Positions 6,769 through 40,731 of a stretch of 64,000 nucleotides of DNA are shown here, piece after piece; within the stretch, counting starts at the first letter, position 1; each line of letters starts with the position of its first letter. The translations under genes and the position numbers were made by a program. Location of the stretch: NCBI RefSeq assembly GCF_004138485.1, contig NZ_ML142848.1:904640-968639 (forward strand), given 5' to 3'. This DNA comes from Peristeroidobacter soli (lineage in GTDB: Bacteria; Pseudomonadota; Gammaproteobacteria; Steroidobacterales; Steroidobacteraceae). The notes under the pieces are model-generated. The model worked only from the letters and a program-made list of their open reading frames with translations. It ran no database searches and was not told where the DNA came from.

Positions 6769-6958
6769 GGCGCTGCCTGCGGTGTTCGACATGTGTCGGG
6801 TTACCTCTCGACCCTAATGTTAATACCCCCGGGATTCGGCGACGTGGTAGCGGTGTGCAAGTCCGTCTCGAACGGAAAGCCTTAGCTGCCACAGCTGCGT
6901 CCCACCTATTGCTCCGTGTCGAGAGCAATGGCTCATGACGGCACAGGCGGGTAGCGCC
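6769..6958 (+). ncRNA. ssrS: 6S RNA
   Basis: 6S RNA folds into a rod that mimics an open promoter and sequesters sigma70 holoenzyme. Evidence is its place between zapA and fau, the conserved GGTGTTCGAC 5' segment, and the CCGTCTCGAACGGAAAGCC(TTA) segment resembling the enterobacterial GTCCGAGAAGCCTTA. Reading the ends by hand, 6769-6780 can pair with 6947-6958 over 12 bp (two G-U), and 6787-6793 with 6934-6940 with one A.A mismatch. That gives about 190 nt, the usual length. The 3' end therefore overlaps the first codons of fau as annotated from ATG 6935. Exact ends need RNA mapping. Confidence 0.8.
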
Positions 6959-7594
6959 TCCTCTCCTTCCTCCGGGCCGGCGGCACTGCTGGAACGACAG
7001 CAACTGCGCCGGCACATGCGGCAACTCCGTCGCGCGCTCTCGCCAACGACACGTGACGAAGCGCATCGGCAATTCGCCCGCTTCCTCAGCGGCTCGCATC
7101 GCTTGCGCCCGCGACAACGGATCGCGGTGTACTTCGCGTACGGTCACGAAGCGGACCTGAGTCACGTGATCGACATCGCACGCCGGCGCGGTTGCCTGCT
7201 CTACCTACCGGTCATCACAGACTTTCGTCGTAGCCGCATGCGCTTCGTGCGCTATCGAACCGATAGCGTGATGCGCGTAAACCGGTACGGCATCGCCGAA
7301 CCCGATCCGCGTCATGCCGAAGTCATTCCGGTGCGCCAACTCGATCTGATCCTGCTGCCGCTGGTCGCATTCGACGAGCGCGGCTGGCGGCTCGGCAGCG
7401 GCGCCGGCTTCTACGATCGCAGCCTGCATCACTTGCGCGAAGGACGCCGCTGGCGGCGACCGACGCTCATCGGCGTCGCTTACGAGTGCCAGCGCGTCGC
7501 GCGACTGCAGGCCGATCGCTGGGACGTGCCGCTCGATGGCATCGTGACTGAACGGGGACTGCATTGGTTCGAGCGGCACCCTGCTACGCTCTGA
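6935..7594 (+). CDS. fau: 5-formyltetrahydrofolate cyclo-ligase
   Basis: ATP-dependent enzyme converting 5-formyl-THF to 5,10-methenyl-THF; 219 aa from ATG 6935. The family motifs are RIAVYFAYGHEADL, LPVITDFRRSRMRFVRY (substrate region), YGIAEPDP, DLILLPLVAFDERGWRLGSG and GFYDRSL. The start is uncertain. ATG 6935 lies inside the predicted 3' strand of 6S RNA, while ATG 7016 (MRQLRRALSP) would give 192 aa, closer to E. coli YgfA at about 182. Residues 1-20 are low-complexity Ser/Ala/Pro, which could be either a real extension or untranslated. Cotranscription with 6S RNA is the known arrangement for ygfA. Confidence 0.9.
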   Translation: MTAQAGSASSPSSGPAALLERQQLRRHMRQLRRALSPTTRDEAHRQFARFLSGSHRLRPRQRIAVYFAYGHEADLSHVIDIARRRGCLLYLPVITDFRRSRMRFVRYRTDSVMRVNRYGIAEPDPRHAEVIPVRQLDLILLPLVAFDERGWRLGSGAGFYDRSLHHLREGRRWRRPTLIGVAYECQRVARLQADRWDVPLDGIVTERGLHWFERHPATL

Positions 7595-7615: not shown

Positions 7616-8089
7616 ATGAACTACTGGTTGATGAAGTCCGAGCCCTCGGTGTTCGGCATCGAGCAACTCGCCAAGGCCAAGAACAGCACCACCGGCTGGG
7701 ATGGCGTGCGCAATTTCCAGGCGCGCAACTACCTCAGGCAGATGCAGCAGGGCGACCTGGTGTTCTTCTATCACTCGAGCTGCGAAATCCCTGGAATTGC
7801 AGGCGTTGCCGCCGTACAACGCGAGGCGTATCCGGACCCGACGCAGTTCGAGAAAAAGAACGATCACTACGATGCGGCCAGCGATCCGGACAACCCGCGC
7901 TGGTACATGGTCGACGTGAAGCTCGTCAGGAAGTTCGACAGGGTCATCGCGCTCGATGAACTGCGCAAGCATGCCGACGGCAAGCTCAAGGACATGATCG
8001 TGCTCAAACGCGGCAACCGACTGTCGATCACACCGGTCAGCAAGAGCGAATGGAGCTTCATCGAGTCGCTCGAGCGAGCTTCGAGATGA
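7616..8089 (+). CDS. EVE domain protein (thymocyte nuclear protein 1-like)
   Basis: A 157-aa single-domain EVE (DUF55) protein: MNYWLMKSEPSVFGIEQLAK at the N-terminus, TGWDGVRNFQARNYLRQMQQ, GDLVFFYHS, and the GIAGVAAV strand are the hallmarks. The EVE/PUA-like fold is proposed to bind modified bases in nucleic acid (THYN1 group); bacterial members of this length are often found beside fau/ygfA. ATG 7616 is preceded by CACGGAG at a suitable distance. The gene follows fau by 21 nt, so it is probably part of the same transcript. Confidence 0.9.
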   Translation: MNYWLMKSEPSVFGIEQLAKAKNSTTGWDGVRNFQARNYLRQMQQGDLVFFYHSSCEIPGIAGVAAVQREAYPDPTQFEKKNDHYDAASDPDNPRWYMVDVKLVRKFDRVIALDELRKHADGKLKDMIVLKRGNRLSITPVSKSEWSFIESLERASR

Positions 8090-8119
8090 GAGGGAGCACA
8101 ACAAAATTGCACGCGCCTC

Positions 8120-8148
8120 TTGCTTGCCATTTTTAATTTATGTATATA
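8120..8148 (+). promoter_or_regulatory. promoter of the Lys-rich microgene
   Basis: TTGCTT (8120-8125), 17-nt spacer, TATATA (8143-8148, running on to TATACT 8145-8150) in a distinctly AT-rich 25-nt patch that stands out from the high-GC surroundings. It serves the 22-codon gene at 8186 with a leader of about 30 nt. Confidence 0.6.
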
Positions 8149-8185
8149 CTGCGCCCGGACTAACTCGACATGGAGATCTAGTATC

Positions 8186-8254
8186 ATGGCAACGAAAGCA
8201 AAGAAGTCTGCGAAGAAGAAAGGCGGCAAGAAGAAGGCTGCCAAGAAGAAGTAA
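8186..8254 (+). CDS. 22-aa lysine/alanine-rich microprotein (histone H1 tail-like)
   Basis: Short frame ATG 8186 to TAA 8254 encoding MATKAKKSAKKKGG and a C-terminal KKKAAKKK; 14 of 22 residues... at least half are lysine, the rest mainly Ala and Gly. It has its own promoter (8120-8148), a TGGAGAT Shine-Dalgarno-like stretch 10-15 nt upstream, and a strong intrinsic-type hairpin 26 nt after the stop. That layout argues for a genuine, well-expressed monocistronic gene. The composition resembles the C-terminal tails of bacterial histone H1-like proteins, so binding to DNA or RNA is a reasonable guess. No enzymatic domain can fit. Too short for usual gene callers. Confidence 0.65.
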   Translation: MATKAKKSAKKKGGKKKAAKKK

Positions 8255-8279
8255 GTTCTTCTGAGTAGATGATGATGAA

Positions 8280-8310
8280 GACTGTGCCCGCGAAAGCGGG
8301 CACAGTCGTT
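8280..8310 (+). terminator. intrinsic terminator of the microgene
   Basis: Perfect 12-bp stem 8280-8291 / 8296-8307 with a GAAA tetraloop, followed by GTTT. The U-tract is short, but stem stability and place directly after the 22-codon gene support termination. Confidence 0.7.
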
Positions 8311-8366
8311 TCCGGAGCCTGGAAAAATAGGTCTTTCAGCGCATCCACCCCAACGAGCCGCACACC

Positions 8367-9020
8367 ATGAACGCCGACCAACTCAAGCAGCAAGCCGCCC
8401 TCGCCGCCCTCAGCCACGTGCAGGAGGACGCCATCCTCGGCATCGGAACCGGGTCGACGGTGGATCTGTTTATCGATGCGCTGGCTGCGCAAAAGCTGCG
8501 CATTCGAGGCGCGGTATCCAGTTCGGAGCGCTCGACGACGCGGTTACGCCGGTACGGTATCGATGTGCTCGACCTCAATACGACGGGTGAGCTGGACCTC
8601 TACATCGATGGTGCGGACGAGTCGGATCGTCACCGACGCCTGATCAAGGGCGGTGGGGGTGCATTGACCCGCGAGAAGATCGTTGCCGCCGCATCGCGGC
8701 GCTTCATCTGCATCGCCGATGAATCCAAACTCGTCGGCGTGCTCGGCAAGTTCCCGTTGCCGGTCGAAGTGATTCCGATGGCGCGCTCGTACGTCGCCCG
8801 ACAATTGGTCGCGCTGGGGGGACAGCCGGTCTATCGCGAAGGCTTCGTCACCGACAACGGCAATCAAATCCTCGACGTGCATGGTCTGTCCATCGTCGAT
8901 CCGGTCACGATGGAGAGCGACATCAATCAGCTCGCCGGCGTGGTGACCGTCGGTCTGTTCGCACGACGGCCGGCGGATCTGCTGATTCTCGGTTCGCCTA
9001 GCGGCGTGCAGACGATTTGA
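8367..9020 (+). CDS. rpiA: ribose-5-phosphate isomerase A
   Basis: Interconverts ribose-5-phosphate and ribulose-5-phosphate in the pentose phosphate pathway; 217 aa (E. coli 219). Motifs are [16 protein letters not shown] (phosphate loop), [20 protein letters not shown] with the catalytic Asp/Glu region, [13 protein letters not shown], and [12 protein letters not shown]. The start ATG 8367 follows the microgene terminator and gives the expected N-terminus ([15 protein letters not shown]). Its 3' end overlaps the convergent pyrD by 23 nt. Confidence 0.95.
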
Positions 9021-12364: not shown

Positions 12365-13144
12365 ATGGAAGAGGGCGCAAGGCCATTGAGCGATATTCCG
12401 GCGATCAACCGGTTCCTGAGCTACTGCCGGATTCGCACGGTGCCTTCCAAGACCGTCGTCATCCACGCCGGCGACCTGCCCGATGTGCTGTATTACATCG
12501 TCAGCGGCTCGGTCGAAGTGATGATCGAGGACGAGGAAGGCAACGAGATGGTGCTCGCCTACCTCAACAAAGGGCAGTTCTTCGGTGAGATGGGCCTGTT
12601 CTACGAACAGCCCACCCGCAGCGCCTGGGTCCGCACGCGTCAGCAGTGCGAGCTGGCCGAAATGACCTATCCCCGCTTCCGTCAGCTCGCGGCCGAAAGC
12701 CCGGGCCTGGTGTTCGAGCTCGCCACCCAGCTCGCCACCCGCCTCGATCGCACCAATCGCAAGCTCGGCGACCTGGCCTTCGTCGACGTGACCGGCCGGG
12801 TCGCGCACGCCATCATGGATCTGTGCAGCGAGCCGGACGCGATGACTCATCCGGAAGGCATGCAGATCAAGGTGAGCCGTCAGGAGCTGTCGCGCCTGGT
12901 CGGTTGCTCGCGTGAAATGGCGGGCCGCGTGTTGAAGGTGCTGGAAGACCAGGGCCTGCTGCGCGCTACCGGCAAGACCATCGTCGTGTTCGGCGCTCGC
13001 CCGAAGATGAAGACCAAGCCGCCGCTGGCCGCCGCCGCGGGCCGCGCTGGCGCCGCTACCGCGGGCACGTCACCCGCGAATCGTCGTACCGATGATGACG
13101 ACGAGGACGATGAAGACGACTTCGACGACGAGGACGAGGAATAG
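12365..13144 (+). CDS. CRP/Vfr/Clp-type transcription regulator with acidic C-terminal tail
   Basis: Global regulator of the CRP family, 259 aa against about 209 for E. coli CRP. The cyclic-nucleotide domain spans residues 15-130, with phosphate-binding cassette FGEMGLFYEQPTRSAWVRTR (Glu, Arg and Ser cAMP contacts kept). In the C-helix the Thr equivalent to CRP Thr127 is present (RLDRTNRK) but the Ser128 position is Asn. The helix-turn-helix SRQELSRLVGCSREMAGRVL keeps the Arg-Glu...Arg residues that read TGTGA. After the normal CRP end (TIVVFGARP) come about 45 extra residues: Ala/Gly-rich, then a run of Asp/Glu (RRTDDDDEDDEDDFDDEDEE). Ligand could be cAMP, or c-di-GMP as in Xanthomonas Clp. 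Confidence 0.92.
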   Translation: MEEGARPLSDIPAINRFLSYCRIRTVPSKTVVIHAGDLPDVLYYIVSGSVEVMIEDEEGNEMVLAYLNKGQFFGEMGLFYEQPTRSAWVRTRQQCELAEMTYPRFRQLAAESPGLVFELATQLATRLDRTNRKLGDLAFVDVTGRVAHAIMDLCSEPDAMTHPEGMQIKVSRQELSRLVGCSREMAGRVLKVLEDQGLLRATGKTIVVFGARPKMKTKPPLAAAAGRAGAATAGTSPANRRTDDDDEDDEDDFDDEDEE

Positions 13145-13172: not shown

Positions 13173-13198
13173 CTGAAGGCCGCGCAAGCGGCCTTCAG
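13173..13198 (+). terminator. hairpin between crp-like gene and rpe
   Basis: Perfect 11-bp stem 13173-13183 / 13188-13198 with a GCAA loop, followed on the plus strand by CGTTTCT. It lies between two convergent genes (ends 13144 and 13214). It probably terminates the plus-strand transcript and may act in both directions. Confidence 0.65.
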
Positions 13199-13213: not shown

Positions 13214-13894
13214 CTACTTCGCAGCCTTCGCGATCTCGGCTCGCATGTCTGAAATCGTTTTGCGGTAATCCTTCGAGCCGAAGATCGCCGAGCCCGCCAC
13301 GAACGTATCCGCACCGGCAGCCGCGATCTCGCCGATGTTGTCGACCTTCACGCCGCCGTCGATCTGCAAGCGAATATCACGACCGCTCGCGGCGATCATC
13401 TCGCGCACCTTCTTCAGCTTGCCCAGCGCAGACGGAATGAATTTCTGTCCGCCGAAGCCCGGGTTGACCGACATCAACAAAATCATGTCGACCTTGTCGA
13501 GCACGTAATCCAGCACATTCAACGGCGTCGCCGGATTGAGCACGATGCCGGGATGACAGCCATGCTCGCGAATCAAACCGAGAGTGCGATCGATATGCTC
13601 GCTCGCTTCGGGATGGAAGCTGATCCACGATGCGCCCGCGGCCGCGAAGTCGGGAATGATTCGGTCGACCGGCTTCACCATCAGATGCACATCGATGGGC
13701 GCGGTGATGCCGTGCTTGCGCAGCGCCTCGCACACCAGCGGCCCGATGGTGAGGTTGGGCACGTAATGATTGTCCATCACGTCGAAATGAATGGTGTCGG
13801 CACCGGCGTCCAGCACGGCCTTCACCTCTTCGCCGAGGCGAGCGAAATCGGCGGAGAGAATCGAAGGAGCAATCCAGGGTTGGTGTGTGGGCAT
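13214..13894 (-). CDS. rpe: ribulose-phosphate 3-epimerase
   Basis: Pentose phosphate pathway TIM-barrel epimerase, 226 aa. Motifs are [32 protein letters not shown] (metal-binding His and catalytic Asp), [27 protein letters not shown], and the phosphate-binding [10 protein letters not shown] and AGSAIFG. Shine-Dalgarno GAGG precedes ATG 13894. It follows djlA by 17 nt on the same strand. Confidence 0.96.
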
Positions 13895-40702: not shown

Positions 40703-40731
40703 AAGGGGACAGATTTATAATCTGTCCCCTT
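40703..40731. repeat. solitary GGGGACAGATT hairpin
   Basis: Perfect 13-bp inverted repeat 40703-40715 / 40719-40731 with a TAT loop, reading AAGGGGACAGATT-TAT-AATCTGTCCCCTT. It lies between the convergent receptor and MCP genes (10 nt and 14 nt away). It has no U-tract. The sequence strongly resembles the GGGGACAGATTTATT-type hairpins that accompany REP-associated (Y1) transposases in many proteobacteria, though no transposase is present here. Confidence 0.7.

Follow-up and report, generated by a model that had tools for sequence, protein, structure and literature searches.

A conserved gene for a short Lys-rich peptide between EVE and rpiA in Steroidobacteraceae, and its proposed relation to long histone-H1-like proteins

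Lys-rich proteins that resemble histone H1 are already known in bacteria as long repeat proteins. Hc2, one of the closest described examples, is a DNA-binding protein made up of Lys-rich pentamers (PMC2848022, excerpt), and peptides composed of KPAA repeats bind DNA in vitro (PMC9239181, excerpt). In Coxiella, the proteins ScvA and Hq1 are enriched in the small cell variant, in which the nucleoid is condensed (PMC4766238, excerpt).

In this study, we analysed a 64,000-nt stretch of DNA from Peristeroidobacter soli (the window, by which we mean the whole of this stretch), which holds a 22-codon frame for a Lys-rich peptide. The 22-aa frame is a real, conserved gene. We consider it probable, with considerable room for doubt, that it is a translated minimal histone-H1-like gene, contracted from a long EVE-linked form, and that its product is a disordered polycation that binds polyanions. 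Among the matches listed from the open-access literature, none ties a family-wide form of 14-26 residues to the long forms. Likewise, none of the matches listed deals with this locus, the scope being open-access papers, and the strings KAKKKAKKKA and AKKKAAKKK are absent from the open-access papers searched. GMSC predicts frames from 30 nt upward (PMC11364881, excerpt), and the peptide may be listed there.

The microgene and its conservation in the family

The frame lies at positions 8186-8254 of the plus strand, starts with ATG and consists of 22 codons followed by TAA, the product being MATKAKKSAKKKGGKKKAAKKK. This is the Lys-rich frame that an earlier note on the same DNA had described, and its translation contains 12 Lys, no acidic residue and no proline. 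The ribosome-binding site claimed in that note is found as GGAG at 8172-8175, 10 nt ahead of the ATG; among the matches listed, GGAG is present in 103 of the 111 distinct units and AGGA in the remaining 8. The note had also proposed a small self-contained gene, under the usual gene-calling size, whose product is like a free histone H1 tail. The likeness is supported, and so is the small gene, by the frame, the GGAG, the hairpin and a conserved promoter-like region.

That region is a conserved putative promoter (8123-8150, plus strand), in which CTTGCC (8123-8128, -35-like) and TATACT (8145-8150, -10) are separated by a 16-nt spacer; the naming of the boxes is our reading of conserved sequence. 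Both boxes are conserved in an alignment of 12 same-genus loci, and a profile of 34 columns made from 87 distinct promoters has the consensus TTGCTTGTAATTTTGTTTCGCGTGTATATACTCG. The AT-rich promoter of the earlier note holds up in its composition, with GC at 0.43 in 8100-8199 against about 0.6 in the surrounding DNA, and in its conserved boxes, but a simple sigma-70 scan calls no promoter at the microgene, so the case for it is one of conservation. The GC-rich discriminator and 5'UTR that follow (8151-8185, plus strand; GCGCCCGGACTAACTCGACATGGAGATCTAGTATC, which includes the GGAG) are identical at 35/35 positions between L001 and each of L002-L005; for six further loci of the genus, in a comparison that did not include L006, identity is 83-91%. 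In the mechanical ORF list, the 22-aa frame is the 3' portion of a longer TTG-start ORF (8120-8254). The corresponding 44-aa product is not preferred, because the spacing between promoter motif and ATG differs among loci.

The peptide MATKAKKSAKKKGGKKKAAKKK occurs once in the 9.37-Mb genome, the window promoter is unique there at up to 3 mismatches, and the exact 18-base core of the 3' hairpin is likewise unique. A repeat element was therefore considered and rejected, since hairpin core, promoter and peptide are each present once in this genome. The sequence GCCCGCNNNNGCGGGC was found at 3 genomic places, against 5 for its reversed control. No Pfam family matches the 22-aa product at E values up to 1, and NCBIfam does not recognise it; a conserved low-complexity gene of 14-26 codons escapes such family libraries. 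The window peptide holds the pentamers SAKKK, GGKKK and AAKKK. Across 33 distinct peptides, in which a single P occurs, 14 pentamer types are found, the commonest being AAKKK, KAKKK, ATKKK and ASKKK. The short-form products have 9-15 basic residues and 0 acidic ones.

The microgene is flanked on its 5' side by a gene for an EVE-domain protein (7616-8089, plus strand; Pfam PF01878, 3.2e-55) and on its 3' side by rpiA (8367-9020, plus strand; NCBIfam NF001924, 2.2e-88). EVE is a modified-base-reader fold, and its place beside an H1-like gene may reflect a functional link. Among the matches listed, rpiA lies downstream in 103/103 loci whose motif is followed by 900 nt of sequence or more. EVE is absent directly upstream in 18 of 107 loci (L032, L039, L041 and 15 others, among the matches listed); at several of these the upstream frame resembles, as judged by eye, a cyclo-ligase gene, and it seems that EVE was lost there while microgene and rpiA stayed together. 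Further upstream in the window, a 6S RNA (Rfam RF00013, 79.9 bits) at 6771-6957 is located just upstream of a 5-formyltetrahydrofolate cyclo-ligase frame (6935-7594), slightly overlapping its start.

Searching relatives for the frame between EVE and rpiA, as the earlier note had suggested, we found it at the same position in 12/12 same-genus loci (obtained from 14 same-genus genomes), none of which carries a frame-disrupting indel; one of them (L006) has a 3-nt difference that keeps the frame. At these loci, the microgene DNA is far better conserved than the neighbouring genes. In the comparison with L004, for example, no difference is seen in promoter, 5'UTR, frame or hairpin (100% identity), whereas identity is 84% for EVE and 86% for rpiA, the latter falling to 71% at third positions.

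The promoter motif is present in 110 of 125 Steroidobacteraceae genomes and its reversed control in 0 (90% completeness setting), a count that is less biased than the motif-locus sample. In four of the 15 motif-less family genomes (G016, G020, G022 and G031), the frame is present and follows a variant of the motif (loci L025, L028, L019 and L023). The motif-locus sample itself comprises 152 loci: the 119 listed from a promoter-pattern scan of one genome per species, a sample out of at least that many and chosen by the motif itself, with 24 and 9 more from other sets. Because some genomes are in both, the 111 distinct sequences are a safer count than the 152 loci. The records of two loci, L036 and L074, are labelled Planktophila and Janthinobacterium and are probably mislabelled bins.

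Among the matches listed, a short all-basic frame is present in 147/152 motif loci; of the five without it, four run into a contig end and one (L114) has a frame interrupted by an N-containing stretch. In all 111 distinct promoter-to-stop sequences among these matches, the frame ends in KKK-stop, and 110 of the frames are 14-26 aa long, the remaining one having 61 aa. The differences in frame length between motif loci keep the reading frame. The 61-aa version (L139), which has KAKAKV-type repeats and the same promoter, is a possible re-expansion.

The Ka/Ks comparison that the earlier note had also recommended gave pN/pS values of 0.00-0.42 in five length classes: 0.09 at 16 aa (28 distinct frames), 0.00 at 17 aa (9), 0.17 at 21 aa (27), 0.34 at 22 aa (15) and 0.42 at 26 aa (3). 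Together they take in 82 of the 90 distinct frames, the remainder falling into classes with fewer than 3 members, and the pairs compared are non-independent. Variable columns at codon positions 1, 2 and 3 number 34, 33 and 65 of 97 each, i.e., about twice as many at the third position as at the others. The microgene is under purifying selection on its codons.

Long H1-like counterparts and the proposed direction of change

Outside the family, the place after EVE can be taken by a much longer gene, a finding that, like the conservation across the family, goes beyond the earlier note. Within the order, 18 non-family genomes with EVE provided 17 loci for analysis, and 13 of these have a Lys-rich H1-like frame of 88-195 aa after EVE, which in 12 cases lies between EVE and rpiA and in one is on a contig that ends first. 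The long frame of L018 is cut at 88 aa by a contig end, and that of L162 loses the Lys-rich pattern near its end. As for the remaining 4/17 loci, the frame of L156 is cut at 31 aa by a contig end and none is present in L021, L170 and L171. In the class, 85 genomes with an EVE match gave 82 analysed loci, the window's own match and two fragmentary ones being set aside; one of the 82, L194, belongs to the family, which leaves 81 non-family loci. Of these, 18 have a Lys-rich frame of about 65-155 aa no more than 1.6 kb behind EVE, and the other 63 have none near EVE. Some of the stretches analysed end early at contig ends. Outside the order, rpiA is near the long gene in 2/18 class loci and absent from the fetched stretch in the other 16.

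Like the microgene, the long counterparts have a GGAG(G) site and a Lys-rich product. Many of them also share with the microgene an upstream region with a -35-like CT[GA]G[TA]A, a gap of about 17 nt and TATACTC, and a loose version of this box spacing is present in 19/27 long genes. These 27 were the long genes taken for the promoter test, four later-found ones being left out. A profile built from short-form promoters only scores at least 0 in 14/27 long genes against 2/1337 control upstream regions, and at least -10 in 21/27 against 15/1337. The controls comprise 1197 regions from the window and the motif-scan loci and 140 from the class loci, with one region at or above 0 in each set and score maxima of 0.1 and 8.3. 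The scores of 20/27 long-gene promoters are reached by no more than 2 of 200 dinucleotide shuffles; 7/27 are not so clear, and 4/27 do not beat all but 10 of the 200. Scattered gammaproteobacterial long H1-like genes after EVE that share a promoter with CT[GA]G[TAC]A, a gap of about 17 nt and TATACTC include those at L175, L181-L184, L196, L199, L210 and L226, among others.

Since low complexity prevents a protein-level test of homology between short and long forms, the proposed orthology is drawn from position, promoter and composition. Where protein alignment is no help, an argument for orthology can still be built on promoter and position. As a probe for another long H1-like protein in the short-form genomes, a 150-aa long-form query left 34 of 37 family genomes unmatched, that of the window among them, and matched the other three (G004, G009 and G013) weakly. 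This lack of matches carries little weight, because the same query recovers the known long frame of the locus in only 3 of the 13 order genomes with such a frame.

In a tree of EVE and RpiA from 62 loci, the short-form loci (32/32) make up one clade with a local support of 0.807, which we regard as moderate; the tree includes 12 of the 81 class loci, and RpiA is missing for several loci. Three short-form tips (L006, L013 and L028) were labelled 0 by the frame filter of the tree, and their peptides are known from the motif-locus set. The tips outside the clade have a long frame, a contig-cut frame or none. One family genome (L168) has an EVE outside the short-form clade and its microgene on another contig. 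On the simplest reading, a long H1-like protein contracted once, at the base of the family, and re-expanded later in L139, the direction of length change being inferred via the rooting of the tree.

The 3' hairpin

At 8280-8307 (plus strand), 25 nt past the stop, lies a hairpin with a perfect 12-bp stem (8280-8291/8296-8307) and a GAAA loop. It is contained in the predicted fold, which has a z of -5.2 for 8150-8325. Perfect stems of at least 12 bp are found at one other site in the 64-kb window, 40703-40731, and in 0 of 10 mononucleotide shuffles of the window. The other site is a 13-bp palindrome, AAGGGGACAGATT/AATCTGTCCCCTT, with a 3-nt loop, and resembles a mobile repeat unit. Within the genus, the stem of the microgene hairpin is nearly invariant (12 same-genus loci). 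Among the matches listed, 144 of 147 units have a hairpin of at least 8 bp within 260 nt of the stop; for each unit the best-scoring hairpin was taken, which is not always the same one. Its distance from the stop is 4-76 nt, with one outlier at 206 (among the matches listed). The loops are mostly GAAA, GCAA, GTAA or TTCG, that is, GNRA or TTCG, and several stem pairs are changed on both sides across units.

The earlier note had called this structure a perfect 12-bp GAAA-loop terminator. Stem and loop are exactly as described, and a GC-rich hairpin is what an intrinsic terminator needs, but the U-rich tail is lacking: the sequence after the hairpin is GTTTCC, without a U-tract, and only 7 of 102 distinct hairpins have at least 5 T in the following 8 nt (among the matches listed). 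Because of these T-poor tails, termination is supported in part. A terminator scan of 7900-8500 did not call the hairpin, its sole call being on the opposite strand.

Another hairpin in the window, with an 11-bp stem and a GCAA loop (13173-13198), is followed by CGTTTCTGG, a CGTTTC tail, and so shows the same hairpin-plus-GTTTC style. It sits between the convergent frames 12365-13144 (plus strand), which we take to be of CRP type, and 13214-13894 (minus strand), presumably rpe-like. Two hairpins of the same kind suggest that 3' ends of this sort, lacking a U-tract, are a local style; they may terminate transcripts or protect a processed end.

Proposed function and comparison with known systems

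We propose that the ancestral gammaproteobacterial EVE-linked gene encoded an H1-like protein of about 65-195 aa, repetitive and rich in Lys. Promoter and place would have been kept while the protein contracted, at the base of Steroidobacteraceae, to 14-26 residues, which make three or four units rich in Lys, most of them xxKKK pentamers. The conserved promoter would drive a short mRNA that may be ended or stabilised by the strong GNRA-loop hairpin. The product, predicted to be disordered because of its composition, would bind polyanions without sequence specificity, and established knowledge of H1-like tails leads us to expect binding of DNA, RNA or polyphosphate by charge. By neutralising charge, the peptide would act like a polyamine in protein form and help condense the nucleoid or the polyphosphate associated with it. 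The gene, its conservation, the selection on its codons, its orthologous position and the similarity of its promoter to most of the long genes tested are direct observations; what we infer are transcription, abundance, binding and function. Most likely, the peptide is an abundant polycation that acts on the nucleoid or on nucleic acid, with polyphosphate as the next candidate.

A more specific version is attractive but tentative, and we think it may well be wrong: the family would have swapped a repetitive H1-like protein for a free 'histone tail', a general-purpose nucleoid polycation. The promoter would predate the family, and the mRNA would end in a GNRA hairpin that hardly varies and lacks a U-tract. 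If true, few known nucleoid proteins would be as small as this peptide, and the locus would be a natural repeat-number experiment on the length of H1 tail needed to work. As products of 14-195 residues are encoded at one locus with related promoters, swaps of natural alleles can test directly how short such a disordered polycation may be and still work.

AlgP and PhaF both need a second domain that joins their tail to the granule. This is relevant to the proposal that the peptide mainly targets polyphosphate or a storage granule, as a free AlgP/PhaF tail organising polyP or PHA granules in starvation. The spacing of polyP granules does need the KPAA-rich tail of AlgP, with which the PhaF tail is homologous (PMC9239181, excerpt). 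However, AlgP also has a 124-aa N-terminal domain (PMC9239181, excerpt), whereas the peptide of 14-26 aa has none, and we consider this proposal unlikely.

A smaller chance is given to a basic peptide that associates with the ribosome or RNA, like the tiny ribosomal proteins, rather than with the nucleoid. Size and charge would fit. The stretch immediately behind the -10 box is GC-rich here, as is typical for promoters under stringent control. On the other hand, no ribosomal gene adjoins the microgene, whose direct neighbours are EVE and rpiA, and the counterparts are long H1-like repeats.

It is also conceivable, though quite improbable, that the frame is a leader peptide whose Lys codons, through their translation, control the hairpin and hence rpiA, in the manner of amino-acid attenuators. 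A short frame filled with Lys codons is indeed followed by a hairpin and then by rpiA, the latter in 103/103 loci with enough sequence among the matches listed, while EVE is absent upstream in 18 of 107. However, the same locus encodes proteins of 88-195 aa in other families, 16 of the 18 class loci with a long frame have no rpiA in the fetched stretch, the stop-to-hairpin distance varies as given above, and 5'UTR plus frame hold no structure above shuffles. The long counterparts, the variable distance and the lack of other structure make a leader unlikely; rpiA is not known to have a link to lysine supply.

Least probable of all is the small RNA that the earlier note offered as an alternative; the frame would then be incidental. 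In its favour, the genus shows hardly any change in the hairpin stem and strong conservation of the 5'UTR, but length changes preserve the frame, long protein-coding counterparts exist, and the reading finds no support because selection acts on codons and there is no excess structure outside the hairpin, 5'UTR plus frame being no more structured than shuffles (mean z -0.32, 3/60 below -2 in the first 60 distinct units), so that a structured sRNA was rejected.

The reading as a contracted H1-like gene can be compared with known systems as follows. Hc2 (HctB of Chlamydia; Hc2-like proteins of Bordetella, Burkholderia and others, PF07382) and the microgene have in common Lys-rich pentamer repeats and a gene length that varies by repeat number. 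Hc2 has 165-237 residues in C. trachomatis and pentamers with two basic residues (PMC2848022, excerpt), as against 14-26 residues and pentamers with three or more in the microprotein. Of three long order counterparts tested, one matches PF07382 with 37.4 bits (E 3.7e-9), short of the curated cut-off of 40, and neither the other two nor the 22-aa product gave a match.

The Lys-Pro-Ala tails of AlgP and PhaF in Pseudomonas share with the microprotein a repetitive, H1-tail-like composition (PMC9239181, excerpt). AlgP and PhaF combine a folded N-terminal domain with a KPAA tail, whereas the microprotein has no N-terminal domain, almost no proline and AAKKK instead of KPAA units, the window peptide being 22 residues without proline. 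ScvA of Coxiella is about 30 aa long. It is small and basic, like the microprotein, to which it is likened by description, and is a DNA-binding protein (PMC4766238, excerpt).

The gammaproteobacterial EVE-linked H1-like genes share with the microgene the position after EVE, a Lys-rich product, the GGAG(G) and mostly the promoter. Same position and related promoter are found together, 7/27 long genes being unconvincing by promoter. The long genes encode 65-195 aa, whereas the microgene encodes 14-26.
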